Assembly: GCA_024867545.1 (NCBI GenBank)
Contig: JANFNE010000005.1
Span: 558,001 to 622,000 of the forward strand
Length of the DNA: 64,000 nt
Direction: 5' to 3'
Source: Phytopythium helicoides
Lineage: Eukaryota > Oomycota > Peronosporomycetes > Pythiales > Pythiaceae
Made by a program: the position numbers and the translations under genes. Below the pieces are notes generated by a model. That model made no database searches, had not been told where the DNA came from, and was given only the letters and a program-made list of their open reading frames with translations. This document shows positions 19,804 through 54,429 of the stretch, piece after piece (the stretch's first letter is position 1; every line of letters starts with the position of its first letter).

Positions 19804-21096
19804 ATGGAGCGCTCGCAGAGGCTCCGACACCACCTGGAGACGCTGCTGCGCCGCGACTTGGCGGCGCGCGGCCCCTCGGCGCCAGCCGTGGACGAGGCGG
19901 CGCTGCGGCGGCGCGTGGACGACTACTACCTCCCCATGTTCCTGTGGACCGAGGAGCTCGTGAACGTGGCGCAGAAGCGCAGCGAGGACCCGCGCTGCGT
20001 GATCGTGGGGCTCAGCTGTCCGCAGGGCGGCGGCAAGACGACGGTCTCCAAGTACCTGGAGGAGATGATGAGCTTCGCGGGCAAGCGCTGCGCCGTGCTG
20101 TCGCTCGATGACGTCTACTGGGAGCGCGCCAAGCAGATCGAGGTCGCGGCGGCGAACCCAGGCAACCCGCTGCTGCAGGTGAGTGATGTGTAGGCTGGCA
20201 CAACACATTGAAGTGGAGGTGCTAAACGGTTTTGTGGTGTGCAGTACCGGGGCAACCCGGGCACGCAGGACATGGACTTCTTCATGGACTTTATCCACGA
20301 GTGCAAGACGTCCAAGAGCGAGATATTGGTCCCGCGGTACGACAAGTCCATGCATAGCGGTCGCGGTGACCGAGCCCCGCGCTCGGAGTGGGCTCGCACG
20401 CAAGGTGGGGAGACGACTGTGCTTGACCACAAAGCTGGCAAGAGCTTACACTCTAGCGGCTCGACTGCAGGTCCGCTTGACATTCTTGTCGTTGAAGGCT
20501 GGTGCATGGGCTTTGAAGGCGCTCCAGCCGAGTAGTGCGCAGCTGAGGTTCGTGGCGTTCTTACTGTACTGAGCCTCATTGCATTCCACCCAACTCATTT
20601 TCTGGATGCCCACAGCGAGCACATGAAGGCCTGTGAACACCGCGCTGCACGAGTACGAGCCGTTCTACCAGGAGCTGGACGGCCTCGTGGTGATCAAGGT
20701 CGGGGACCTCGACTGGGTCTACAAGTGCGCACCACTTCCTCCCTTCCTTTTCGCTGGTTGGTTGGCTGATAACGCACGCGCTGGATGCGATGACGCAGGT
20801 GGCGCGAAGAGCCCGAGCAGCTGCTGCGCGAGGCAGGCAAGCCGGCCATGACCAAGGACGAGGTGCGGGACTTCGTGGACCGCTTCATGCCGGCCTACAA
20901 GCTGTACCTGCCGGCGCTTTACGCGGACCCGACGTCGCCCGCGGACCGCTCGACCCGCGAGCTGTGGGAGCCCAGCAGCAAGGTCGCGGCGGTGCCGCGC
21001 CTCGTCATGGAGATCTCGGCGACGCGTCAGCCGGCGGCCCAGCCCGTCGAGTTCAACTTCTCGTCGAGCGTGGTACGCCTCAGCAGGGGCAGCTGA
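19804..21096 (+). CDS. GLYK: D-glycerate 3-kinase (GLYK / YGR205W-type P-loop kinase)
   Basis: Phosphorylates D-glycerate to 3-phosphoglycerate in the plant family. Exon 1 is 19804-20178 and exon 2 begins at 20245. It starts MERSQRLRHHLETLL. The Walker A motif is GLSCPQGGGKTTVSKYL, followed by VLSLDDVYW. Exon 2 has YRGNPGTQDMDFFMDFIHE, VPRYDKSMHSGRGDRAPR and LDILVVEGWCMGFEGAPA, all diagnostic. Further exons give ELDGLVVIKVGDLDWVYKWR (restored across an intron), then AGKPAMTKDEVRDFVDRFMP and AYKLYLPALYADP. One apparent extra T near 20632 separates HMKA from VNTALHEYEPF. A longer in-frame upstream extension exists but this ATG matches the family length. Photorespiratory use is unlikely in an oomycete; serine/glycerate metabolism is more plausible. 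Confidence 0.82.
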
Positions 21097-21333
21097 GCAG
21101 CAGCGGTCAGCTTCCGAGATTCGCGTGTCCGAGGCGGCTAGATTTACGATTCTGTCCTGTTTATTGCAGAAGACACGCATTTTTACTTGCATATTTCCAA
21201 ATATAGTCCAAGGTAGGCTGGGAAGGTTTGTACAGATTCACAATTGTGACCCCAGTCGGAGAAGGCGAGCGATGCGACCGACAATCAAACGGGTGGAAGC
21301 CGGCCGAGCACTCGCGGCGAGGAGAAGGCGAGC

Positions 21334-22562
21334 ATGGAGCGGTACCAGAAGCTGGAGAAGGTGGGCGAGGGCACGTACGGCGTGGTGTACAAGGCCAAGG
21401 ACCGCGTGACGGGCGAGATCATCGCGCTCAAGAAGATCCGGCTGGACGCCGAGGACGAGGGCATCCCCAGCACGGCCATCCGCGAGATCTCGCTGCTCAA
21501 GGAGCTGCAGCACCAGAACATCCTGCGGCTCTACAACATCGTGCACACGGAGCGCAAGCTCACGCTCGTCTTCGAGTACCTCGACCAAGACCTCAAGAAG
21601 TACCTCGATGTGTGCGAGAAGGGCCTCGAGAAGCCCATCATGAAGGTTTGGCACGCGAAAGCTAGCGTCTGGCGGCGTACTCACCACTCACGCGCGCTTC
21701 TGCTGCTCAGTCGTTCCTCTTCCAGCTGCTGCGCGGTATCGCCTACTGCCACCAGCACCGCGTGCTCCACCGGTGAGCCCCGGCGCCCTCAACCACCGAT
21801 TCCGGAATTGCGGTCTAACGATTCCGCACTGTCCGCTCCAGCGACCTCAAGCCTCAGAACCTGCTGATCAACCGCGAGGGTGACCTCAAGCTCGGGGACT
21901 TTGGCCTTGCGCGCGCGTTTGGCATCCCCGTGCGCAGGTGCGAACGTCGCGGATGCGGCGTGCATCCTTTCGATATCGCGTTCTTATATACTCGCTCGCA
22001 TCACTGGCAGCTACACGCATGAGGTCGTGACGCTCTGGTACCGTGCTCCTGATGTGCTGATGGGGTCCAGGTAGGTGAATCTCTTCGCATTCATGGTCAT
22101 CGAACGGCACTAATTAGACTGTTGTGATTGCAGAAAATATTCGACGCCAGTCGATATTTGGAGTGTTGGATGCATCTTCGCTGAGATGGCGAACGGCGGC
22201 CCGCTCTTTGCCGGCACTTCCGAAGCGGACCAGCTCGACCGCATCTTCCGGCTGCTTGGAACGCCGACAGTCGACATCTACCCTGCCATCGTTGATCTTC
22301 CCGAGTATCGCGTACGTATCCAAGATGCCAAGAGAGTCGCACAAATACTAAGTTACTCCTTTGATGGTATCTGCAGCGGGACTTCCCCATGTACCCCCGA
22401 CCTGAGAACCTGCAGCACCTCGTGCCAACGCTCGATGAGGATGGCGTGGATCTTTTGGAGCAAATGCTGCAGTACGATCCTGCCAAGCGTATCACGGCTG
22501 CAGATGCTATGAACCACCCGTACTTCAACGACCTCGCTCCTGGACTCTCCGAGCCCAACTAA
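21334..22562 (+). CDS. PSTAIRE cyclin-dependent kinase (CDC2/CDK5 group)
   Basis: Complete Ser/Thr kinase of about 300 residues in six short-intron exons. It starts [20 protein letters not shown]. The glycine loop is GEGTYG, the ATP Lys lies in IALKKIRL, and the cyclin-binding helix is PSTAIRE. The catalytic loop is HRDLKPQN (across an intron), the Mg site [13 protein letters not shown], and the T-loop [20 protein letters not shown] carries the CDC2-like activating Thr. The C-lobe reads [17 protein letters not shown] and ends [15 protein letters not shown] and [15 protein letters not shown] lean towards CDK5/Pho85-like members, while YTHEVV is CDC2-like, so the subclass stays open. No frame break is seen. 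It probably controls the cell cycle with a cyclin. Confidence 0.88.
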
Positions 22563-22749: not shown

Positions 22750-25744
22750 ATGAAGATAAGATCACACCTTGCGGTGCTGCTGTTGCCATTGCTCTTCCGA
22801 TACCACACTTGTGTGTGCAGCTCTGAAGGTGCGCGATTACGACCCTGCTTGCGTCCAGCAAGCACCTCGTATCTTTTCGCAGCAGCAGAAACAAATTCTT
22901 TGTGTAATCGATTCGAGAGTGCAAGAGGAGCCCGACAGCTATGTGGATGAGGATATCCTCACCCACAAAGATTTATTACGGCACCCGCCAAGTGCGCTGA
23001 GCGAGCTCTCGAGACGCGAGTATCTCATTCGGCTCCAACTCGCCGTGACAATGACAGCGTGCTGCCTCATGTTCTATCTCTGTGTGCTATGGCAAATGGA
23101 TCTGAGCCTGCTGCTTGCTGGGTGTCGTTCCCTTCTAGTGTCCGCCACCAAAAAGTCGAGACTGCTGTGGCAGTATTCCCCCACGTTGAAGTGTGTCGCC
23201 ATGCCCGAGACACAGCACCCGGCCTCATGTTTCCAGTTGTGGCTTCGTTCCAGCGCTTTCTTGCTTTCACACGAAGCACGCGAGCTCTACCTTCAGTAAT
23301 TCGAGTATGCCAATCTCTACAGGTTTCAATGCTGACCGAGTTCAGAATTTGTGTAAAGCAAGGAACTCGTACAATTGGCGCAGCTGCAGCCTATCCCCTC
23401 TGTCAATTTGTCTCTCCAAAAGATGGGCTTTCAAATCGTCGAGCAATCATCGAGTGCGCACGACGCTGGCACGAAGTAGATTGCCAGCTTTGGCAATCGC
23501 CACAGCGTGTGCAAAGTCGACAGCAAACCCACTGCTAGTATCCGAGGCTAAGGACACAGCTTCAAATGTCCCAGTGCGACCAGAATCGTGCATGCTTGCA
23601 GCACAGCAGAGTCTTGGGCAGTGGTTCGACCCAACTCGCTTCGGAAACCTTTGCGATCAAGCGCAAGAAGGATCCACATCACCAGTGGTGTGCGCGAGCA
23701 CTCTTCAGCATGATGCTACGAGGCAAATCTCCCGATTTGGCACCACTTCTTCACAACGTCGAAGTGCTTTGTCAGATTTCGTCGTCAGCATGTGCCGACA
23801 TGCAGACGAGCAAAGCCCAGTGGGGTCATGTCTCCGACTTTTGCCACCCAAGGTGTTGACTGCTCAGCAAATCGTACAAGTGTGCTCGGCTGGCTCGATG
23901 GCAGCTAAGACAAAGTCGGCAGCCGTAATCTCTGCGCAATGCGTAGCTCGAGCTTTGCCGATCCTTGCCATGATGATGAGACAGCGTCAACACCAACGAG
24001 TTGGCGCTACTGACGAAAAAGACACCGGGTTATTGCTCGTTCGTTTATGCGAGAAAGCTAAATCACTTGCCCCAAGCGACTGCCTCGCTTCTGTGCAATT
24101 TGACAGAAGGCTGAGTCTTTCTCAAGCTGTCTCCATGTGCGCTGGAGCGCAATCCGATGCTCCGCAGCGCTGTCTTCGTCGCCTGCAATCACATATTTCA
24201 TCAAACCGATTCACAATTGAGCATAGCGCGGCCTTATGTGCTGGTAACTCTTCGGCGCGAGCAGAGTGTGCAGAAATCGCTCTACGTGAGATAAGCACCA
24301 GTATTAGCAATGCCTCTGCTTTGGTCTCAGCATTATGTGCTCACGCGTCGAGCACTGCTCCTGCAGAATGTCTTCGCAAGTCACCACGGAGCTATTCATT
24401 AGCCGAGAAAGTCGCGCTATGTCGCCGCGCTCAATCCACTGATCCAGCGCAATGCGCCTCCAAGCACTTGAAACGCTTATCTTTAAAGCCCCAGCATCAA
24501 ATAAGCCTTTGTCGAGGCGCGCTTTCCCAGTTTCCGGCACTTTGCGCACTCGAAGCTCCGTATGGCATGACAGCTCGTGAAATCGTGTTGCTCTGCCATG
24601 GTGCTGAGAATATAGTCCCGCAACTTGTGCTCGTGCGGTTTCTACCTCGTTGCGGCTACCACCGGAGATTGCTGCTCGGGTCTGCTCCAGAGCAATGTCG
24701 ACGCTACCAGGACGATGTCTAAACCAAGAGGCGATGAAGTTTCTGCGACGGTCTGTCCCAATCCCTGAAAGTGTTGTGCAGAACTGTCGAGCAGCGAATG
24801 CGGAGCTTTCTGGTCTCGAGATTTTGAAAGTTTCATACCTGTGCGACCAGCTGCGCGTGAACTGTCCTTTGTCGCTGACACTACGTGCGCTGGACCAGTT
24901 CGGTGACGAGATACCCAACCTGAGCGCAGGATACATTCATGTGGTGGCACAGTACGAGGGTCCTCTTGAAGATACCATGTCCGATCAGCAGGCCAACAGA
25001 GCTCCAAAGCAGATGACTTGCTGGATGGCTGCGACGTCAGTTGCACCTGGAGTTGAGGGACTTTTGGGGCAGTTGACCGTGCCCATAGCGAATGGCACTG
25101 CCTCGTTTCTTAACCTGCAGTTTTCATCTCCCGGGTGTTTTGCATTGACGTTTCGAGCGCTTCGAAATGGTGTTGAAAAGGTTGCTCGGATCCGTATCCA
25201 CCCGGATCTCGACGGCGCAGCGCTGGCTAACAAGTGCCACGCCCTCTTCTTCGAGCAGTTCCAAAGCCCTCACCTACATGATGGGACATCTGAGCACAAG
25301 ATAATGACGCTTTCATCCCGGTTCTTCCTGCAAGCTGCCGAGTGCGAATGGTACTGGAGCGCCAACATCGCGGGGATGGTCTCGATCCCGAGTGTCCATC
25401 GCCTATCATTCTCCATGCCGCGCGCCGTGTTTGATTTCCTCTTGTACGTCTACTCCACACTGTATTTGTATTTTGCCGTCTAACGCTGCTCTTTCATGCT
25501 GTCCAGGCGCACGGACGTCCCTCGTGCCGATATGAGCGACTGGGAGCGGCTGGGCATCGCTCCTGGCGCCAACCGCAGCACCGTGCGCCGCGCATACCAC
25601 CGGCGGTCGCTCGAGTGGCACCCAGACAAGTGGCGCGCCGTGCAACTGCTGCCCGCGTGGCGCCGCGAGCTTGACGCCGTGTACGCGCTCGTGACACAGG
25701 CGTACGTGGAGCTGCTGGGGACTGGTGACGAGTCAATCGCATGA
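22750..25744 (+). CDS. Secreted/ER cysteine-repeat protein with C-terminal J domain
   Basis: Starts MKIRSHLAVLLLPLLF, a signal peptide. A long region follows, built of tandem units of about 35-45 residues with pattern 'hxLCxxAxSxxPxxC', for example AVSMCAGAQSDAPQRC, ALVSALCAHASSTAPAEC, KVALCRRAQSTDPAQC and IAARVCSRAMSTLPGRC. A beta-rich domain comes next (LRVNCPLSLTLRALDQFGDE ... FSSPGCFALTFRALRNG). A 62-bp GT-AG intron at 25445-25506 then joins FDFLL to RTDVPRADMSDWERLG, followed by STVRRAYHRRSLEWHPDKW, a J domain with intact HPD. The frame breaks near 22.81, between 23.1 and 23.5, and near 24.63 kb, but repeats continue across each break. I do not recognise the repeat as a named family. A lumenal Hsp70 (BiP) co-chaperone is an inference. 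Confidence 0.6.
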
Positions 25745-26095: not shown

Positions 26096-26803
26096 ATGAT
26101 GGACGTGGTGCTGAGCATCCTGCGAGGGGTGCGCAACGGCTCCTACTACGGCACCAAGGTGCGCGCGCCGCACGGTAAGGCGCGGGCTTGAGTGCGATGT
26201 CCGTCAGGCGGAGGCTGACGGTGGCGGCGCGCAGCCCTCGTCATGATCTTCCTGTTCCAGAGCGGGTCGCTGCGCCAGAAGCTGCGCGGCGTGGTGCGGC
26301 TGACGTTCGAGCACTCGAAGAACCTGGCGCTGTTCGTGGGCGTGTACAAGGCCGTGCTGGCGCTGCTGCGGCAGAACGAGCTGTCGCTGCCGGGCCACAG
26401 CGTGTCGGCGGCCGTGGGCAAGCCCGCGCGGCACTGGCACGCGGCGGTGGCCGGCGGCATCGGCGGCTACCTCATCTGGGGTCGCTATTCAAGCGTCAAC
26501 TTCCAGATCGTCATGTACCTGCTGTCTCGCGTGGTGATCAGCACGGCGCGCGCGCTGGCGGCGCGGGGCGTGGCGCCCTTCGCGGGCCACCGCTTCCAGC
26601 ACGTGTACCCGCTGTTGGCGACGGCCGTGTGGGCCAGCGTCATGTACCTGTACGAGAACGAGTCGGCGCTGCTGCACCCGTCACTGCGCCGCAGCATGGA
26701 GTTCCTCTACGACGAGTCGTGCCGCTGGGAGCGCGGGCTCGTCGACTTCCTGCCGTCGCCCGCCACGGCCGCCGTGCTCGCGCTCACGTGGCTGCAGCTC
26801 TAG
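26096..26803 (+). CDS. PXMP4: Peroxisomal membrane protein 4 (PMP24), Tim17 family
   Basis: Two exons, 26096-26174 and 26235-26803, giving about 215 residues. It starts MMDVVLSILRGVRNGSYYG. The exon junction restores KVRAPHALVMIFLFQSGSLR, the PXMP4 signature, followed by HSKNLALFVGVYKAVLALL, SVNFQIVMYLLSRVVIST and HPSLRRSMEFLYDESCRWE. Four hydrophobic segments with Gly-rich faces match the Tim17/22/23/PMP24 fold. It is an integral peroxisomal membrane protein in animals and plants; its molecular role there is poorly known. No frame break. Confidence 0.85.
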
Positions 26804-37268: not shown

Positions 37269-37595
37269 AGGGGGAGATGCAGCGCATCAGTTTTGCAGTA
37301 TGAACTTGTAAACACGGGCTACTGTTGAGCTGGTGAGCTCTTTCGCTTCAGCTTGTGATGGATTGTCATATGCACCCAAAATCCATGAGCAGATTACGAG
37401 GTTACCTCGCGTTGAAATGGCCTTCACGTTTACTACGTGTCTAGTTGCCAGTGTCTCGTCCCGTGCACTTGCGTGATCAGTGTCGACCAGGAGATTACCT
37501 TAGTCGGCCTTGGTAAAATGCCGGAGCAACGCTGCATTCGCGATGGTGTGAGTGCTCATTTTTGCCTTAGCCTCCGTCCGCTCACGACACTGGCT
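37269..37595. promoter_or_regulatory. Spacer and promoter of DGAT2-like copy 1, with initiator-like element
   Basis: Holds GCTCATTTTTGCC at 37554-37566, which matches the first ten positions of the oomycete initiator consensus GCTCATTYYNCAWTTT, 42 bases before the ATG at 37596. This supports the 37596 start over in-frame ATGs further upstream. Confidence 0.45.
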
Positions 37596-39929
37596 ATGCC
37601 TTCTACGGGATCTACTAGAACCGCATCGTTCTCTCCGAAGAGTGAACCTCATCGTATTAATTCACCAGCCGCAGCCTCAAGAAGTGAAGAAATTGCAGAC
37701 GAAGGCCCCTCCATCCTCCACAAGCCTAGCCATGCGAGAACTCGCAGGTTGTTGCTCCTGATGGCTTCGTTCGTGACTTTTTCGGCGTTCATGCTGCTCG
37801 TGCTGGTCGAGATCACACATTTCGTCTCTCCAATCCTGCTGCCGCCTCGGGCTCGACAGGATGTGCTTTCATTCGCGCTTTGGATTCTCATGGTAGCTCC
37901 GCCGCTCACGTCGGCGCCTGTATGGTTTGCTGTGTCGATCCAGTCTACGCGCGGGGTTCACATGCGACTGCAGTCGTCCTCACTTGGATCCCTCCCAGAG
38001 TCGCTCGCGTTTGTGTTCGTCATTGCACGCCGCTACAAACACAACACCACGTTTGCCATCTACCAAGGTGTTGCCTGGGTGCTTTACGTCCTCGTGCTCA
38101 TCCTTCTCGCAGTATCGAGCTCGAACGCAGACCTCCCTGGCACGCCATCAGCGCTAGGGTATTGTGTGACAGGCGGACGTTATAGCCTTGCTGTTCTCGC
38201 TTTCATTGCCGAGGAGCTCATTATCTCCTCTGTGCTTGCACTCGAGGAGCGATGTGACCGTAACTTGCTCAGTCGGAGAGGCCGCTTCATCGTGCAACTC
38301 AACAATTTCAACAACATGCTGCTACTGGTCGGTGCCGTTGTGATGGCTACAGTTTTCGAGACTACTCGTCTTCAGACTTGCGCGACCACGACGTTGTCAC
38401 TGAATGCGGGGATTTGCTCGCTGATGCTCTTTTTGACAGCACTGCTCAACACGTACGGGCTCGGCGGTGTACTGTCAACTAAGGACGGGTGGCGATTCTT
38501 TCAACCGTTTGTTGGTGGAACTCGTTTCATCGTGTTACAGACGATTGCATGGACATGCTTTGCGGCAGGCTTGCTGCTCCAAGTCCTCACACTCACATCT
38601 CTCATCACGGTAGACGTGGAGTCGTTCATGGGTACCACACCTGCCGTGTGTGTGCTGTTCCTGATTGCTGAAGTTTCCACCATACTTTCACTTCTCGTGT
38701 TTCGTCGACCAGGCTGCAAACAAGGCTTGACAAGGCCAAATCGGCTGCTAAAGTGGCTCGTGGCAGAGGTTGGCGGGGTCATCTTGACAAGTGGCCTAGT
38801 CAACTTGCAGTTCATCCCGAACATGCTTTTCTTCGTCTATTACCGAGTCTTCACGAGCCTGAGCTTTCAAGGGATTCTGGTGTACGGAGCGGTGACCAAT
38901 GTGATCGATTTCAGTCTGTTCATGGCTCCTCTTGTTGCCAAGCACATGTACATCAAAGACTCTCACTACGGGGAGCGCTCGGAGATCAGCAAGCATAGCG
39001 TCAAATACGTGCTTCCGAGTTTTCTCACAGGAGTAATGCCTGCTTACGCGAGTTATCACCACTACGCCAGCAACTTGGACGAGTTTTGCGCAGTCTTTGC
39101 GATCTCGGTCGCAGCGTACGCCTACTTGGTCACATTCCGAGGAGACCCGCCCCATACGGGATGTCGTATGCGCACGAACTGGGTCAAAGGGAAGTCGGTG
39201 GTTATTGAAAACATCCGACGTTACTTCTCCGGGCGAATCATCACGAGTGCGCCACCCTTACACCCAAGCGAGCAGTATATCATGGCGTTCCATCCTCACG
39301 GCATCCTGCCACTATCAGTCATGTGGCTGCAGTTTACAGACGCTTGGAGACAACTCCTTCCCAACATTCACGCGCGGATTCTCACAGCCAGCGTGCTCCA
39401 TCAGATGCCGCTGGCGCGTGACATCCTACAGTTCTTTGGGGGACGCGAAGTGACGCGCCAGGCATTTGTCCACGCCCTGAATGCAAAAGAGAATGTGATG
39501 CTCGTGCCAGGAGGACAGGCCGAGATGCTCGAACAGCGGTCAGGCGTCAAGCAAGTCCGCGTCATCACGCACCACAAGGGATTCATCCGCATCGCGATCG
39601 AGCACGGCGTGTCGCTCGTGCCCGTGCTAAGTTTCCGAGAAGGAGAATTGCTGAGCAATGTGTACGCTCCGTCACTTCAGCGGTGGTTCATCACGAAGCT
39701 GGGCTTCCCGTTCCCGTACTTCCCCTACGGCCGCTGGTTCCTCCCAGTCCCGCGACAGGAGGAGGTAGCCGTAGCTGTAGGCGCTCCACTAGCCGTCGAG
39801 AAGGTGGAGAATCCGAGCCAGGAGGTCGTGGACAAGGTGCACGCGGAGTACTTCAGTCGCCTCGAGGCGCTGTTCCACGAGCACAAGAAGGCTGCCGGTT
39901 GCGAGGACTTTGAGCTCGTGCTCATCTAG
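37596..39929 (+). CDS. Polytopic membrane / DGAT2-type acyltransferase fusion, copy 1
   Basis: Intact single-exon protein of 777 residues. It starts MPSTGSTRTASFSP. Residues about 50-520 contain some ten to twelve hydrophobic helices with conserved NNFNNMLLLVGA, NTYGLGGVLSTKDGWRFFQP and similar blocks. The C-terminal about 250 residues are a DGAT2/MGAT-family acyltransferase: YIMAFHPHGILPLSVMWLQF (HPHG at residues 566-569), VMLVPGGQAEMLEQRSG, HHKGFIRIAIEHG, FPYFPYGRWFLPVP. The family transfers acyl-CoA to diacylglycerol, monoacylglycerol or alcohols in the ER. Usual DGAT2 proteins are 300-400 residues with one or two helices, so the N-terminal module is an addition I do not recognise. An in-frame extension to 37437 is possible. 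Confidence 0.82.
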   Translation: MPSTGSTRTASFSPKSEPHRINSPAAASRSEEIADEGPSILHKPSHARTRRLLLLMASFVTFSAFMLLVLVEITHFVSPILLPPRARQDVLSFALWILMVAPPLTSAPVWFAVSIQSTRGVHMRLQSSSLGSLPESLAFVFVIARRYKHNTTFAIYQGVAWVLYVLVLILLAVSSSNADLPGTPSALGYCVTGGRYSLAVLAFIAEELIISSVLALEERCDRNLLSRRGRFIVQLNNFNNMLLLVGAVVMATVFETTRLQTCATTTLSLNAGICSLMLFLTALLNTYGLGGVLSTKDGWRFFQPFVGGTRFIVLQTIAWTCFAAGLLLQVLTLTSLITVDVESFMGTTPAVCVLFLIAEVSTILSLLVFRRPGCKQGLTRPNRLLKWLVAEVGGVILTSGLVNLQFIPNMLFFVYYRVFTSLSFQGILVYGAVTNVIDFSLFMAPLVAKHMYIKDSHYGERSEISKHSVKYVLPSFLTGVMPAYASYHHYASNLDEFCAVFAISVAAYAYLVTFRGDPPHTGCRMRTNWVKGKSVVIENIRRYFSGRIITSAPPLHPSEQYIMAFHPHGILPLSVMWLQFTDAWRQLLPNIHARILTASVLHQMPLARDILQFFGGREVTRQAFVHALNAKENVMLVPGGQAEMLEQRSGVKQVRVITHHKGFIRIAIEHGVSLVPVLSFREGELLSNVYAPSLQRWFITKLGFPFPYFPYGRWFLPVPRQEEVAVAVGAPLAVEKVENPSQEVVDKVHAEYFSRLEALFHEHKKAAGCEDFELVLI
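39510..39929 (+). repeat. Near-identical 3' block shared by DGAT2-like copies 1, 2 and 3
   Basis: The last 400 or so bases of copy 1 recur at 42063-42472 (copy 2) and 44816-45245 (copy 3). For example, AGAAGGTGGAGAATCCGAGC lies within all three, with only a third-position change in copy 3. Copy 4 (minus strand, 47202-49553) is much more diverged in the same part. The N-terminal halves of all copies differ more. The pattern suggests local gene conversion among the three direct copies. Confidence 0.65.
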
Positions 39930-47201: not shown

Positions 47202-49553
47202 CTAAATGAGCACGAGTTTGACGTCCTCACACTTCGCAGCCTTCTTGTGCTCGTGAAAGAGAGCCTCAACGCGGCTGTAATACTCGGCATGGACCTTGTC
47301 GACCACTTCTTGCGTTGGGTTCTCAACTTTCTCAACAGCAAGTGGCGAGCCAACGGCCACGGTGACATCAGTCTTCCGTGGGACTGGCAGCAGTCCGCGT
47401 CCATACGGGATGTATGGGAACGGAAAACCCAGTTTCTTCACGAACCATTGCTGCATCGCAGGTGCACGAACATTGTCCATGATCTCGCTTTCATGGAAAC
47501 TCAGCAAAGGAACAAGGGACACGCCGTGTTCGATCGCAAGGCGAATGAAACCCTTGTGGTGCGTGTAGACACGAATCTCCTTGACGCCAGATTGCTGCTG
47601 GAGCATCTCTGCTTGGCCGCCAGGAACGAGCATCACGCTCTCCTTCTCCTGGAGAGTTGCAACAAACGCTTGACGTGTAACTTCGCGACCACCAAAGAAC
47701 TGGAGAACATCACGGGCAAGCGGAATCTGATGCAACACGCTTGCCGTCAGAATATGCGCGTAAACGTTGGGGAAGAGTTGGCGCCATGCATCCGTGAACT
47801 GGAGCCACATAACGGACAGAGGCATGATGCCATGCGGATGGAAAGCCATGATGTACTGGCCATTCGGGTCAAGCGGCGGGCCACTGGTGAGGATTTGGCC
47901 AGAGAAGTACTGCTTGACACGATCAATGAGCACCGACTTTCCGGTAACCCAATCCGGGCGCATGCGGGAGCCAGATTGCTGAGGATTGCCGCGGTACGTG
48001 AACTCGTAGATGTAAGTCGCTGCCGTGAGAACTAATACCGAGTAGAATGGCTCCAAGTCGTTCACGTAGTGGTGGTAAGTGAAGATGGCCGGTGTGATTC
48101 CCGTGATAACTCGGGGAAGCACGTACTTGACATGGTACTTGTTGATCCCCGTGCGCTCACCGTAGCGGGAGTCCTTGTTGTACAAATGGGTCGCGATGGA
48201 TCGCGAGATGACCATAAAGAATTCGATGAGAAAAGCTGTGAGGGCGTAAAAGGCCACTCCAAAAAGGCTCAAGTTGGTCGTGAGTGCAAAGTAGACAAAC
48301 ATAAGAGCGTTCGGGATGTACTGGATGTTGGCGAGTCCACCAGCCACAAGCACACCGAGGCATTCGTCTGCAAAGTTGTGGATCCGCTGTTCGAAGCTTC
48401 CGCGTGGCCGGTTGGCGTCCGACTTGCGGAAAACAAGCAGCGACATCATCATGACGACCTCTGACGTCGCAAATAGAGCTCCAGCTGCTACCATTGCCCC
48501 AACGAACAACTCCAGCTCAACCACGACGAGCGAGACGAGGTACAATCCTTGGATGAGAAGACCCGCCCCAAAGCAAGTCCACGAAACGATCTGGAAGGTC
48601 ACAAAGCGAGCGCCGCCCGTAAAGGGCTGGTAGAAGCGCCAGCCATCCTTGGTCGAGAGTACACCGCCGAGACCGTACGTGTTGAGCAGAGCAGTGACGA
48701 ACAGCATCAGGGACCCAACTCCAGCGTTGAGAGGGTAAGCAGACGGCTTATGGTCCAACTGGCGAGCAAACTCGGAAGACGCAGCCAGCGCCACGGCACC
48801 AACCAGTAGCAGCATGTTGTTGAAGTTGTTGAGCTGCACGACGAAGCGGTCGCGAGGCCCACGGAGGTTGCGGTCGCGGCGACGCTCGAGCGTGAGCACG
48901 GACGAGATCACTAGCTCCTCGGCGATGAAGGCGAGCACCGCGAGCGAAGACCGGCCCCCAGGGACGCAGAACCACAGGGAGGCCGACTCCGCAGCCGCTT
49001 CTGAGGACGACGGCTCCGTAACCGCGCAGGTGGCCAGTTGCAGCAGTACGACGCCGTAGAGCGTCCATGCGACGCCCTGGTAGACCGCGAACATGCGGTT
49101 GCGGCGGAAGCTGCGCGCGACCATGGCGGCGATCGACTTGGATCCGCTGGGGCTGACGGGCGACCGGATGCGCAGCTGGCCACCCGCGGACGCCACCGAC
49201 ACGGGCAGCCACGCGGCCGTGGCCGTGGCCGGCGCGGCCACCACAAGGACCCACAGCGCGGACGAGTGGACGTCGCGCGCCACGTCGGGCCGCAGCAGCC
49301 CCGGGGCCACGAGCGGCGCCAGCTCGGCCAGCGCCAGCAGCGCGAACGCCGCGAAGGACGCGACGGACGCCAGCAGCAGCAGCGCGCCGCGCGCGCTCAT
49401 GCGATCGAGCGGCCGCGCGGCCGGGCTCTCTCCGTCCGAGTCGTCCGCGCGGTCGGCCGCAGTGTGGACGCGCACGGGGGCCGCGCGGCGCCGCAGCCCC
49501 AGCGCGGACGGCGGCGGGTCCGCGTCCGCGGCCGCGAACGGGTTGGCGAGCAT
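47202..49553 (-). CDS. Polytopic membrane / DGAT2-type acyltransferase fusion, copy 4
   Basis: Intact, single exon, about 783 residues, inverted relative to copies 1-3. The start MLANPFAAADADPPP is chosen because it matches the start of copy 3; an upstream in-frame ATG at 49649 exists. The N-terminal module has MSARGALLLLASVASFAAF, NNFNNMLLLVGAVALAA and NTYGLGGVLSTKDGWRFYQP. The acyltransferase part has YIMAFHPHGIMPLSVMWLQF, VMLVPGGQAEMLQQQSG, HHKGFIRLAIEHG and IPYGRGLLPVPRKTDV, ending CEDVKLVLI. It is more diverged from copies 1-3 in the C-terminal third than they are from one another, consistent with being outside their conversion group. Confidence 0.82.
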   Translation of the reverse strand: MLANPFAAADADPPPSALGLRRRAAPVRVHTAADRADDSDGESPAARPLDRMSARGALLLLASVASFAAFALLALAELAPLVAPGLLRPDVARDVHSSALWVLVVAAPATATAAWLPVSVASAGGQLRIRSPVSPSGSKSIAAMVARSFRRNRMFAVYQGVAWTLYGVVLLQLATCAVTEPSSSEAAAESASLWFCVPGGRSSLAVLAFIAEELVISSVLTLERRRDRNLRGPRDRFVVQLNNFNNMLLLVGAVALAASSEFARQLDHKPSAYPLNAGVGSLMLFVTALLNTYGLGGVLSTKDGWRFYQPFTGGARFVTFQIVSWTCFGAGLLIQGLYLVSLVVVELELFVGAMVAAGALFATSEVVMMMSLLVFRKSDANRPRGSFEQRIHNFADECLGVLVAGGLANIQYIPNALMFVYFALTTNLSLFGVAFYALTAFLIEFFMVISRSIATHLYNKDSRYGERTGINKYHVKYVLPRVITGITPAIFTYHHYVNDLEPFYSVLVLTAATYIYEFTYRGNPQQSGSRMRPDWVTGKSVLIDRVKQYFSGQILTSGPPLDPNGQYIMAFHPHGIMPLSVMWLQFTDAWRQLFPNVYAHILTASVLHQIPLARDVLQFFGGREVTRQAFVATLQEKESVMLVPGGQAEMLQQQSGVKEIRVYTHHKGFIRLAIEHGVSLVPLLSFHESEIMDNVRAPAMQQWFVKKLGFPFPYIPYGRGLLPVPRKTDVTVAVGSPLAVEKVENPTQEVVDKVHAEYYSRVEALFHEHKKAAKCEDVKLVLI

Positions 49554-50065: not shown

Positions 50066-53000
50066 TCACTTGAGCAGCGCGGGGGTCGGCGCGCTGCTGG
50101 CGAGCGCGAGGCCGTGCAGCTCGCTGTGGTCCAGAGGCTGCCCGTCGGCACTCGTCACCGGCAGGTTCTGCGCAAGTAAGAAGCGCTGCAACCCCTGCGT
50201 CGACATGAGCGAGCACATGACGTCGAGTCGCTTGTCCGCGTCCACGTTGGTAGCAGCTCTGGCTTTCGCGTCGAGCGCAGGCTTCTTCTCCTCTTCCTCG
50301 GCGGCGGTGGAGGATATTTCGTCTCCACCGGTGAAACCGAACGCCTCACCAACGATCCCGTTCCCTGCGGTCAAGTCGGCAAGACCTTCATGCATGGCTG
50401 CGATCGTCTTGCGTGCCGACGCGCGGACGTCGGGATCGTCCGACTCGAGCTGGTCACGCAGCTGGAATGCGTCGTCGGCTGTCAAGTGCCCAGCGTTCAC
50501 GAGATATTCCATTTGAGCCTTGAGTACCACTGGACTCTCTTGATCAGGCTCCTTCGGCCCAACATCACTCGTGTCGGGAAGTGCAGGCGGTTCCTTGCCC
50601 ATCAGTTTGAGCGTTGACCGAACGCCAGGGTACATGGACGCCGTGACAAGCGATGCGGCTCCCACCACCTCCATACTAGACTGCACTGGCTGCTCGAGCG
50701 TCGTCTTGCCGTACGAGAAATAGTTCATATAGCTCGTCCACCAAGTTTCTCCCGACACGGGTTCAGACAGCTTGGCAGCCTCTTCGTGCTCCATTTTTCG
50801 AAGTGACTGCGCAGCTTCCGTGCTCACCCACTCCCAAAACATGCTCCAGGTCACAGGTCCTTCAAACGCGTCGTCCTGGATGACCGCTAGCGTTCGCTCG
50901 TAACCTTTCTCTGACACAGACCCTGACGCCTCGAAAAGCTTTGTCATGATCCGGATGCAGTCCTCCTTCGAGATCTCACCCTTTGCGTTTGGATCATACT
51001 CGTCGAACATGAGGCGAGCACCGAGCTCCAAGCGGTCAATATGTTCTTTCGCGTGCTGCTGACTCGTAAAGTAGGATGCCGTGGATGCTGTATATGCCTT
51101 CGAACCGGCAAAGAACCCGAGCATACCACCAACGACAGCTGCACTGGTGGCCGCGACAATCCCGACGGGACCGCCTGCGATACCTGCAGTCGACCACATC
51201 CCAAGCGCTGACGCCACGCTGTAAGCGCCGATGCCAGCACCCGCGGCAGCTGCTGTCCGACTCACAATCACTTCACCCGTCTTTAGGCGAAACTCTTGCA
51301 TCATAAGCTGCTCGCTCGTTGTCGAGAGTACACCAAGAGACTTGCGATCGGCATATTTCTTGCGGTAGTCGTAATACTCTTTGCCAATATCAACAAGGAT
51401 CGAGGCGATCGTGAGAGGTGCTGCAACTGCACCTCCTAATGCCGATGTAGTGCGAGCCATGCCGTTTGCGAGCGCGACGCCACCAGCCGCACGAATGCCA
51501 CTGTCAAGAGCTCCATCAGCCCCGGCAGCAACGATGCTCTTGACAGCACCACTGGCGTTTTGGTCCTCAAGCTGATATCGATTGATCACCCTTGTTGCAA
51601 GCTCCAACCGCTTAGTTTCCACTGCGTCACTGGCTGCTGCTCGGGCCAGCGAGGCACCGCGACTGATAGTAGACTTCTGAATATAGCCGGTCATGAAGAC
51701 TGGCGAGCCAAAGCTGATAACGGCGGATGTCTCGCTGTCTCGCCAATCAAGGAGCGTACCGATTCCAAAGGGTGTGTTGAGGAGCGAGCCCACCGGATAG
51801 AAAACTTCCGCATCCGAAACAGTCGCCTTTGTCTCGGTTTGTGATGGTTCAAGGTCAAAGTGGGCATTCACTTCATCCAAGAGGTCGACGCAATCGAAAA
51901 ACTCCTCCTCCGCAAGGGCTTCCATTGCGGCATTGTCAAAATCAGCCACACAGTCGAAAAACTCGTCGACAAGCTCATTTTCTTCTTCAATTTCTCGCTG
52001 ACGTTTTTCAATAATCGCTTGTTCGGCGCCTCTGATCATGAGCTCACGTGTGTTCACGTGTTCCGCAGATGACTCGGAGCTTGTGGTAGCAGCAGCTGCA
52101 ATCTGCTTCTGGCGAGCAGCAGCCTGTTGCAACATGAGCTGTGTGTGATCACTTGCTTGCTGCGTCTGACGATGATCCTCAAGCAGCAAAAGCAAGCACT
52201 CTGCAGGCATCTCCTTCACGACCGATGCTTGGTGTTTCTTTCGTGCGTTTTCAGAGATCTGAGACCAAGCGCTCACGATCAAAGCAACGCTGGCACCAAC
52301 TGCGACTGCACCGCCAACAACCGACATTGTTCGCAACCCTGCGCGTGCACCCGAAGAAGCGGTTTGCGCTGGAGCGGCCACATCACCAGCCATCACTTCG
52401 TCTGGCTGCAAATACAGGATCTGTTCATGCTCGTCGACACCAATCCCAACAGTCCTTGAAACGCGAATGCGATCTGGCATAAAAATGTTGTCGTGGTTGT
52501 TTACAACGAGCCCACTGCGAGTCGAAGCGCCATTGTGCTGTAGTGGATGACCAACAACCGTAGAGCTTGAGGTCGAAAACCGCGACGTAACCTTCGAGAC
52601 AGCACCAGACAAGTTATCAATCACGTCTCGGAACGTTGCAATAGCTTCATCCAAGGTCATGCCGTTAACTGTGCCTTGGTGAACAAACTCTTCTCTGATA
52701 CTAGGGGCCTTGTTCAGGTGCACATCATAAGCCTTGCGTGCAGATTCATCAGACAGAACCTCATACGCCTCGGCAAGCAGCTTGAAGATTTCCTCTGCTG
52801 TTGCCTGCTCTTGAGGATTTGTAGACGAGTTGGCCCATCGATCGGGGTGCCACTTCAGCGCAAGAGCCTTGTAAGCACTGCGAATTTGCTTCTTGGTTGC
52901 ATTGCGAGGTACTCCCAGTCGCTCGTAGTAGTCCATTGTTGCATTGATCTGAATCGAGGTAGAACGACGCGCTACTGCGTCGACGTAAGCACTCATCAGA

Positions 53001-54283
53001 TGCTGAAGGATGGTGTTTCCAGTTAGTGAGGTAGTTGCGTCATCGCTGCGCGCCAACTCCTTCGTGATTGATGAACTGTCCGAATAAATCTGGTACTCGC
53101 TGCCGTTCTTGGTCAGAAAGATATATGTGCCGACTGGGGAGTACTGGTAGTCAATATCCTTTACCACATCCATGTCACGGAACTTCCGAAACGTGCTCTG
53201 CAGGATATTCAGTGACATCGTTAGATAGGCAGAAGCAGCGGTCGGGACTGCACCCGCCTGACTTGCTGTCGCCAGATTCACAAATCGTTGCTGCATATGC
53301 AATGGCAGCATCTTCAGTAGCGCTGTTGTTGCTCGGCTGATAGTGACAACACGCTCGGTTGTCTTCGCTAGCATCGATGCGGACTGGGCGACGTTTAGAA
53401 TGCTCGGGATGCAGTCGAACTCGTTCACAAAGTTGATCATTCGTGGCACAAGACCCAGCGGCTCCAAAAAAGCGCTTAGGCGAGACGACCCCACATACGG
53501 CGCACCGAAGCCCACGGCCATTACTTGTGGTAGCCCGGTTGCGATTTGCTGTCGCTCGTCATCGCTGCAGGCATCAATGAACTCACTCAAACTCTTGAAC
53601 TGCGCTCGCGTTCTCCCCACCGCAGTGCTCTCCTCGTCATGGTGCGCGTCCCTCTTTCGCTCGTCAAAATCCAATTGCTCCAGGAACAGCCTCGTCTTGG
53701 TCGGCAGTCGCTGGAATGCAAGCTCGCACATCGCGAGTTGCGCGATGCTGCCAGCCATCGAGTGTCCACACAAGATGAGCACCTTCTTGAGCTGCAGCGC
53801 GCGGCGGTAGAGCGGCTGTAGCTCCAGGCGCTGCGTCTTCTTCCAGAACGGCGCGTGTACGCGCGCTCCTCCGAACCTGTGCACGAACGGCTGGGAGAGC
53901 GGCACGGCCGAGCCCACGACTGTCTCCACGATGTCGCTGGCCTTGGTCGCACGCACCGCGCAGACGACGGCCAGCTCCGTCTCCATGAGCACGAAGTCGC
54001 GCGCGAACTCCAGCACCGGGAAGCGCAGGTTGTGCGGCAGCGGCGACTTGCGCACGTGCGCCTCCAGCTCGCGCGCGGCTCGCTCCGCTCCGTCCGCGCT
54101 CTCGGCGTCGCCCTTGGTGGCGCCCAGCGCCGCGCACAGCACGGCCGCGCTCAGCAGCTCCGTCTCGCTAGTCGCCACGCGCAGCTGGGCGCTGCCGCCG
54201 GCCCACCACCACGCGGGCTGCGGCTCGTGGGCCTCGCGCGCGGCGGCGGCGCGCGGCGCTCGCACGGCGGTCGAGAGCTCCAT
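50066..54283 (-). CDS. Class 3 lipase / J-domain / EF-hand fusion protein
   Basis: Intronless protein of about 1,405 residues from [14 protein letters not shown] prefer this start to an in-frame ATG at 54403 because it leaves room for a promoter before the divergent TM9SF gene. Lipase region: nucleophile elbow [17 protein letters not shown] (Ser about 175), [17 protein letters not shown], candidate Asp in [13 protein letters not shown] (about 290) and candidate His in [12 protein letters not shown] (about 428). J domain: [20 protein letters not shown] ... ALKWHPDRW with HPD at about 479-481. A helical segment (STTVVGH onward) and Gly/Ala-rich hydrophobic stretches ([20 protein letters not shown]) follow, then an EF-hand-like loop [12 protein letters not shown] at about 1,098. 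A membrane-associated lipase recruiting Hsp70 is an inference. I know of no named family with this order. Confidence 0.75.
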
Positions 54284-54429
54284 GGCGGATGTCGAAGTGC
54301 CACTTGCTTTTCTTCTCGCTGAGTTGGGACAGTAGGTTCGCGCGTAAAGTTCGCTTTTGTCACTTGATGACTGTATGGTGATCCTCTCGCCAGATCTCGT
54401 CATTCTCCTGGCCGCCTCCTGCGTCGCCC
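54284..54429. promoter_or_regulatory. Compact divergent promoter, lipase-J and TM9SF genes
   Basis: Only 146 bases separate the two start codons. A TCATTCTCC element at 54403-54411 resembles the first half of the oomycete initiator, 27 bases before the TM9SF start. It suggests a shared bidirectional promoter. Confidence 0.35.

Follow-up and report, generated by a model that had tools for sequence, protein, structure and literature searches.

A frame-disrupted copy of an apparently unnamed stramenopile J-protein family with cysteine-pair repeats in Phytopythium helicoides

Results

Within a 64,000-nucleotide stretch of Phytopythium helicoides DNA (contig JANFNE010000005.1, positions 558,001 to 622,000; hereafter the window), part of a 49-Mb eukaryotic genome, we analyzed a forward-strand locus at 22750 to 25744 that an initial annotation had read as a single secreted protein with cysteine (Cys) repeats and a terminal J domain. 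Judged by sequence homology, the locus is one frame-disrupted copy of an apparently unnamed stramenopile family, called here the repeat-J family, whose architecture comprises a signal peptide, 7 to 17 two-helix units with two conserved Cys residues, an immunoglobulin (Ig)-like sandwich, an alpha/beta segment and a C-terminal J domain. All of these parts were found at the locus, in order, by homology, although the window copy does not read through as a single open frame. An intact close relative, P0001, matched the window with an E value of 1.9e-153 and 67% identity, and the repeat-J architecture is therefore not a chance arrangement.

The tblastn match of P0001 ran through changing frames, so that the reading as a single protein was not borne out. 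Three-frame translation and this match placed six frame changes between ~22820 and ~24620 and none past 24620. A signal-peptide-like N-terminus (22750 to 22830, +; frame translation) extends up to ~22820 and is followed on the same strand by six pieces (~22829 to 22970, 22975 to 23215, 23216 to 23284, 23302 to 23463, 23463 to 24610 and 24614 onward), the last of which reaches the intron before the J exon. The tandem repeat region itself spans 22829 to 24727 (+) in several frames, as delimited by tblastn with P0001, frame translation, a repeat profile and piecewise alignment. The initial annotation thus holds in outline, with homology behind it; its observation was partly confirmed and its interpretation partly supported.

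Our family searches, each of which scored ~8000 candidates, returned 67 proteins, of which 65 were kept and form the denominator of the counts below. The other two, P0066 (E = 2.9e-29) and P0067 (E = 8.8e-18), were dropped as long multi-Ig-like-repeat proteins without Cys units or a J domain; the Ig-like domain presumably accounts for their matches. The 12 named relatives come from brown algae (Scytosiphon, two Ectocarpus, Hapterophycus and Choristocarpus), oomycetes (Pythium insidiosum, three Phytophthora and Aphanomyces invadans), the xanthophyte Tribonema and the labyrinthulomycete Hondaea fermentalgiana, a thraustochytrid. A taxonomy check confirmed that Hondaea and Tribonema are stramenopiles, as we take the other ten to be. 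Diatoms, downy mildews and others were not among the named matches, which, given the number of candidates scored per search, we did not use as evidence.

In a tree of the Ig-like-to-J region (59 rows, with the window row entering from part of the Ig-like region onward), the window paired with P0001 (100/94) inside a 12-row oomycete clade (99/98) that also holds Phytophthora and Pythium insidiosum, while a 31-row clade (98/99) took in all five named brown algae. Aphanomyces fell outside the oomycete clade on a long branch, a placement that the tree program flags as unsafe. P0018 and P0026, which lack the cutting motif, and the fragments P0047 and P0055 to P0058 were left out of the tree. No description of the family was found in the open-licence literature (PubMed Central, PMC) among the matches listed, in agreement with the earlier remark that no named family is known to combine this repeat with a J domain. 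Collectively, these comparisons point to a real, conserved and apparently unnamed J-protein family that looks secretory.

The Cys-pair repeat was recovered both as a pattern and as a profile. In the 386-residue open piece at 23451 to 24608, a pattern picked after the sequence had been seen occurred 7 times, whereas 2000 shuffles averaged 0.91 occurrences and reached 6 at most, and a profile of the relatives' 28-residue units detected 5 units at E ≤ 0.01 in the same frame, the best at 1.9e-11. The proposed count of at least ten tandem units is reached only when units are summed across frames, and not in any single frame. The proposed unit length of 35 to 45 residues gave way to a core of 28 to 31: among 653 unit-start spacings in the relatives, 276 were of 28, 29, 30 or 31 residues (97, 73, 48 and 58 times, respectively), the remainder being split or longer spacings. 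The consensus of the 28-residue unit is LCRGATSDAPAACAAAAPHRLGEAGRVA; Cys percentages at its positions 2 and 13 are largely set by the pattern that picked the units and were not used as evidence. By pattern, 7 to 17 units were counted in the 21 relatives whose N-termini seem complete, and the profile gives 5 to 18 units per protein. The units are predicted by modeling to stack into an alpha-helical arm.

No Pfam or NCBIfam model covered the repeat in the scanned locus pieces and relatives. The Pfam scan of the locus took in six pieces and one neighbouring frame (E ≤ 1). Seven relatives scanned against Pfam at E ≤ 10 matched DnaJ only, kinase models on the kinase-fused P0005 aside, and six matched NCBIfam at E ≤ 10 in J-domain models only, plus one stray, adenylosuccinate lyase (E = 0.12), over the J region. 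P0002 matched nothing in Pfam or NCBIfam. The GLG1-type Cys-rich repeat (PF00839), compared by sequence, gave no match at E ≤ 10 in the seven relatives. A sequence search of the PDB at E ≤ 10 likewise turned up no relative of the repeat piece or of the beta piece.

Downstream of the repeats, the beta-rich segment of the initial annotation was borne out at ~24812 to 25207 (+) as an Ig-like beta-sandwich domain within the open frame 24608 to 25483, where AlphaFold 2 (AF2) models of relatives P0010 and P0059 have seven strands. Structure searches returned filamin rod, GH2 Ig-like, FdeC and intimin domains as its best solved folds. The C-terminal model drew 12 matches, led by GH2 galactosidase, S-layer SbsC, velvet, STAT1 and alpha2-macroglobulin chains, with matches placed on the sandwich (residues 4 to 128); whole-model Foldseek searches of the PDB gave no match at E ≤ 0.001. 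In contrast to the Ig-like domains of filamin, invasin, intimin and GH2, that of the repeat-J family is a single domain within a J-protein and has no Pfam Ig-like match. In Pfam, the beta piece gave two weak matches under the cut-off, BenE (E = 0.07) and DUF7794 (E = 0.084), which were taken as chance. Between the Ig-like and J domains lies a small alpha/beta segment (25214 to 25443, +), recognized from the AF2 models and the alignment, with invariant Cys columns across 10 rows.

The segment is followed by a predicted 63-nucleotide GT-AG intron (25444 to 25506, +; ends GTACGT...TGTCCAG). The initial annotation had recognized this intron but set it at 62 bp (25445 to 25506), which would throw the J exon out of frame. 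P0001, P0002, P0044 and P0045 stop 13 to 40 residues beyond the intron site, Phytophthora P0059 is continuous across it, and from the sequences compared the site looks old.

The J-domain exon and its stop (25507 to 25744, +) were identified by a PF00226 match, a genome search and alignment with relatives. PF00226, at 28.8 bits (cut-off, 27.8), was the sole Pfam match above cut-off at the locus; it scored 31.5 to 41.4 bits in six of the seven scanned relatives and was absent from P0002. The HPD motif, at 25619 to 25627 (+; alignment with relatives), is intact as annotated, and the exon encodes helix II (STVRRAYHRRSLEW) and helix III (ALVTQAYVEL). Pfam found neither DnaJ_C nor a class A CXXCXGXG zinc finger in the six locus pieces (E ≤ 1) or the seven relatives (E ≤ 10). 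In 53 of the 65 relatives, a single protein carries both the repeats and, near its C-terminus, the HPD (HPDRW in 43, HPDKW in 9 and HPDRS in 1), and across the family the J domain is thus not a separate gene. Four of the 12 relatives lacking an HPD stop soon past the intron site, seven are truncated or unclear, and P0003 runs into the J exon read in another frame.

The disruption of the window copy raises the question of whether it is a recent pseudogene, in which case the full protein would not be made in this organism. We give this explanation, which is compatible with our reading of the family, a little under an even chance. Six frame changes fall within ~1.8 kb of coding sequence, and other conserved genes keep their frames open: of 30 genomic Hsp70 matches, 28, the best 11 included, have no stop, and the other two have one TGA each. 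The PDE, DAGAT and SLC35F open reading frames (ORFs) of the window are long as well, with the caveat that ORFs chosen for their length are bound to be open. Third-position GC is 0.33 to 0.58 in the locus pieces versus 0.64 to 0.72 in three open neighbour genes (J exon, 0.82), and the repeat and beta pieces each have a single match, to themselves, in their own genome at E ≤ 1. Other measures argue against decay. All matched pieces fall within open stretches without an in-frame stop. With P0002 as the outgroup and the J exon excluded, 59 changes were unique to the window and 68 to P0001; each lost 8 of 123 conserved sites; and in the piecewise alignment the window kept 39 of 40 conserved Cys residues. 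Branch lengths were 0.40 for the window and 0.31 for P0001, and 570 of 830 window residues were identical to P0001 in the piecewise reading (J exon excluded). Compared in this way, the window copy gives no indication that constraint has relaxed. Indels from local assembly or sequencing would give the same picture. The copy may be a very recent pseudogene or may carry local errors in the sequence; it is frame-disrupted and may not yield the full protein.

The upstream kinase gene is no control for integrity, because two of its five tblastn blocks hold two stops each, probably introns. Flagellar loss was considered as a cause of the disruption and was not supported: the genome keeps the flagellar genes IFT57 (243 bits) and RIB43A (159 bits), and the disruption is therefore not a sign that flagella were lost in general. 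A radial-spoke model gave only sub-threshold genome matches (23.9 and 23.3 bits; cut-off, 25.7). As a separate observation on base composition, the repeat pieces at 22975 to 24608 have third-position GC of 0.33 to 0.46, far under the J exon and the three neighbours.

The locus is flanked upstream by a cyclin-dependent-kinase-like gene (20797 to 22562, +; tblastn and Pfam) and downstream by a Tim17/Pmp24 family exon, peroxisomal membrane protein 4-like (26243 to 26803, +; PF02466, E = 2.6e-6, 28.2 bits, under the cut-off of 32.7). In Pythium insidiosum, this kinase and the repeat-J protein are joined in one public gene model (P0005), and Phytophthora pseudosyringae P0059 carries the name "Peroxisomal membrane protein 4." These models show traces of the same neighbours, which hints at conserved gene order, and public models merged with the kinase or bearing the peroxisomal name could be corrected.

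Elsewhere in the window, a 1445-residue ORF (50066 to 54403, −) carries both a strong J domain (75 bits, with HPDRW at residue 519) and a match to Lipase_3 (27.5 bits; cut-off, 22); a further long J-domain ORF of 1596 residues lies on the same contig (C46:463831). Two long DAGAT genes (37518 to 39929, +, and 47202 to 49553, −) stand in opposite orientation ~7 kb apart, each with an N-terminal extension of ~500 residues without a Pfam match at E ≤ 0.001. Cytosolic-type Hsp70 genes form inverted pairs ~8 kb apart on contigs C72 and C11, possibly one region assembled twice.

Discussion

Several features suggest that the repeat-J family belongs to the secretory pathway. The start at 22750 (MKIRSHLAVLLLPLLF..., within an N-terminus beginning MKIRSHLAVLLLPLLFRYHTCVC...) has a maximum hydropathy of 2.44 over 11 residues, bearing out the signal peptide of the initial annotation, and 16 of 26 tested relatives also passed this crude test, among them P0001, P0002, P0003, P0010 and P0063. 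One passer, P0008, apparently starts within the repeat, as do, by eye, 8 of the 10 failures (the other two are P0006 and P0052); P0059 looks secretory by eye. The genome also encodes lumenal BiP-type Hsp70s, one ending in HDEL (L016) and two in HNEL (L017 and L018), and L016 and L017 start with a signal peptide by eye.

We favor, with some confidence, a secretory-pathway J-protein of class C that would recruit BiP, a reading in which we infer the localization, the Hsp70 activation and the disulfides. The protein would enter the endoplasmic reticulum (ER), where each repeat unit would be stapled by one disulfide, and the helical arm, the Ig-like domain or both would hold client proteins. The J domain would stimulate ATP hydrolysis by a BiP-type Hsp70 and pass the client on, and the protein, lacking KDEL, would be retained via binding partners or move on along the secretory pathway. 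The "chaperone system" first suggested goes too far, as what was observed is one co-chaperone-like protein.

Two results bear on parts of this reading. One disulfide per repeat, as the initial annotation had it, is plausible from the conserved Cys residues, which occupy 98.8% of cells in columns that are at least half Cys (62 sequences), but a co-loss test in the all-family alignment gave no sign of such pairing. For pairs within a unit, at least one Cys was lost in 17 of 734 cells and both in none; for pairs between units, at least one was lost in 9 of 947 and both in 2, where 0.1 was expected. With too few losses and an uncertain alignment, these counts, if anything, disfavor intra-unit pairing. 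In addition, a KDEL-type C-terminal signal was found in none of the 65 relatives, which leaves secretion as an alternative to ER residence.

The protein may thus instead be exported as an extracellular or cell-surface chaperone or a structural protein, the J domain acting in passage only or carrying clients out. We consider this unlikely, although the signal-peptide-like starts and the missing KDEL-type end fit it, as do the Cys-rich repeats and an Ig-like domain resembling adhesin and S-layer domains. Retention of the HPD in 53 of 65 relatives suggests that coupling to Hsp70 matters, and both ERdj3 and P58IPK work in the ER despite being KDEL-less. Export of an ER J-protein does have a precedent in ERdj3/DNAJB11, a secretory-pathway J-protein that can leave the cell under stress, as reported in PMC9867986.

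It is improbable, in our view, that the J domain has become uncoupled from Hsp70 and now mediates protein-protein interactions within a structural protein. Such uncoupling would suit the low Pfam score and the Trp that follows HPD(K/R) in 52 of 53 relatives, a residue that looks uncommon at this position. However, in most rows of the J alignment the HPD is retained, helix II is basic and helix III keeps its AY (absent in Hondaea P0065 and in P0064), and HPDRW also occurs in the high-scoring J domain of the Lipase_3 ORF.

Least probable of all is a role as a secreted effector in plant or animal hosts. Some relatives do belong to plant or animal pathogens, and a Pseudomonas J-domain effector has reportedly been described. 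J-domain effectors are reportedly also known outside this family (PMC6802931). The distribution largely refutes an effector role: the family is found no less in the free-living brown algae, in Tribonema and in a thraustochytrid, the window genome has a single match, and the family tree tracks species groups.

For the BiP-recruiting J-protein that we favor, the nearest analogue by layout, though not a family match, is DNAJC3/P58IPK (ERdj6), which likewise has a signal peptide, a helical repeat arm, a C-terminal J domain and no KDEL. Its repeats are tetratricopeptide repeats (TPRs) without Cys pairs and are unrelated to those of the repeat-J family, in which Pfam found no TPR match (six locus pieces and seven relatives); it also lacks the Ig-like domain. 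In ERdj5/DNAJC10, the J domain is N-terminal with thioredoxin domains after it, whereas here the J domain is C-terminal and no thioredoxin match was found in the same pieces and relatives. ERdj3/DNAJB11 has an N-terminal J domain followed by DnaJ_C substrate domains, again unlike the C-terminal J domain of the repeat-J family. The two are alike in that ERdj3 is a secretory-pathway J-protein able to be exported (PMC9867986). Transcription activator-like (TAL) effector repeats resemble the repeat-J units at the fold level, without a Pfam sequence match. TAL repeats are 34 residues long and act in a nuclear context, whereas repeat-J units are mostly 28 to 31 residues with two Cys each in a secretory one, and the likeness is probably a common arrangement only.

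A bolder extension, which we regard as a long shot, is that the protein would be a BiP co-chaperone specific to stramenopiles and already there in their common ancestor. Its arm, stapled by disulfides, would serve a class of clients peculiar to stramenopiles, such as tubular flagellar hairs. These hairs are built in the lumen of the ER or nuclear envelope, and all 12 named relatives presumably come from lineages with flagellated stages.

The repeat is a candidate for a new Pfam family. Most knowledge of ER chaperones comes from animals, fungi and plants; if our reading is correct, the BiP machinery would include a lineage-specific extra component, a conserved J-protein whose Cys-repeat arm is undescribed, and this protein would offer a handle on the folding of secreted and cell-wall proteins in ecologically and agriculturally important stramenopile groups.
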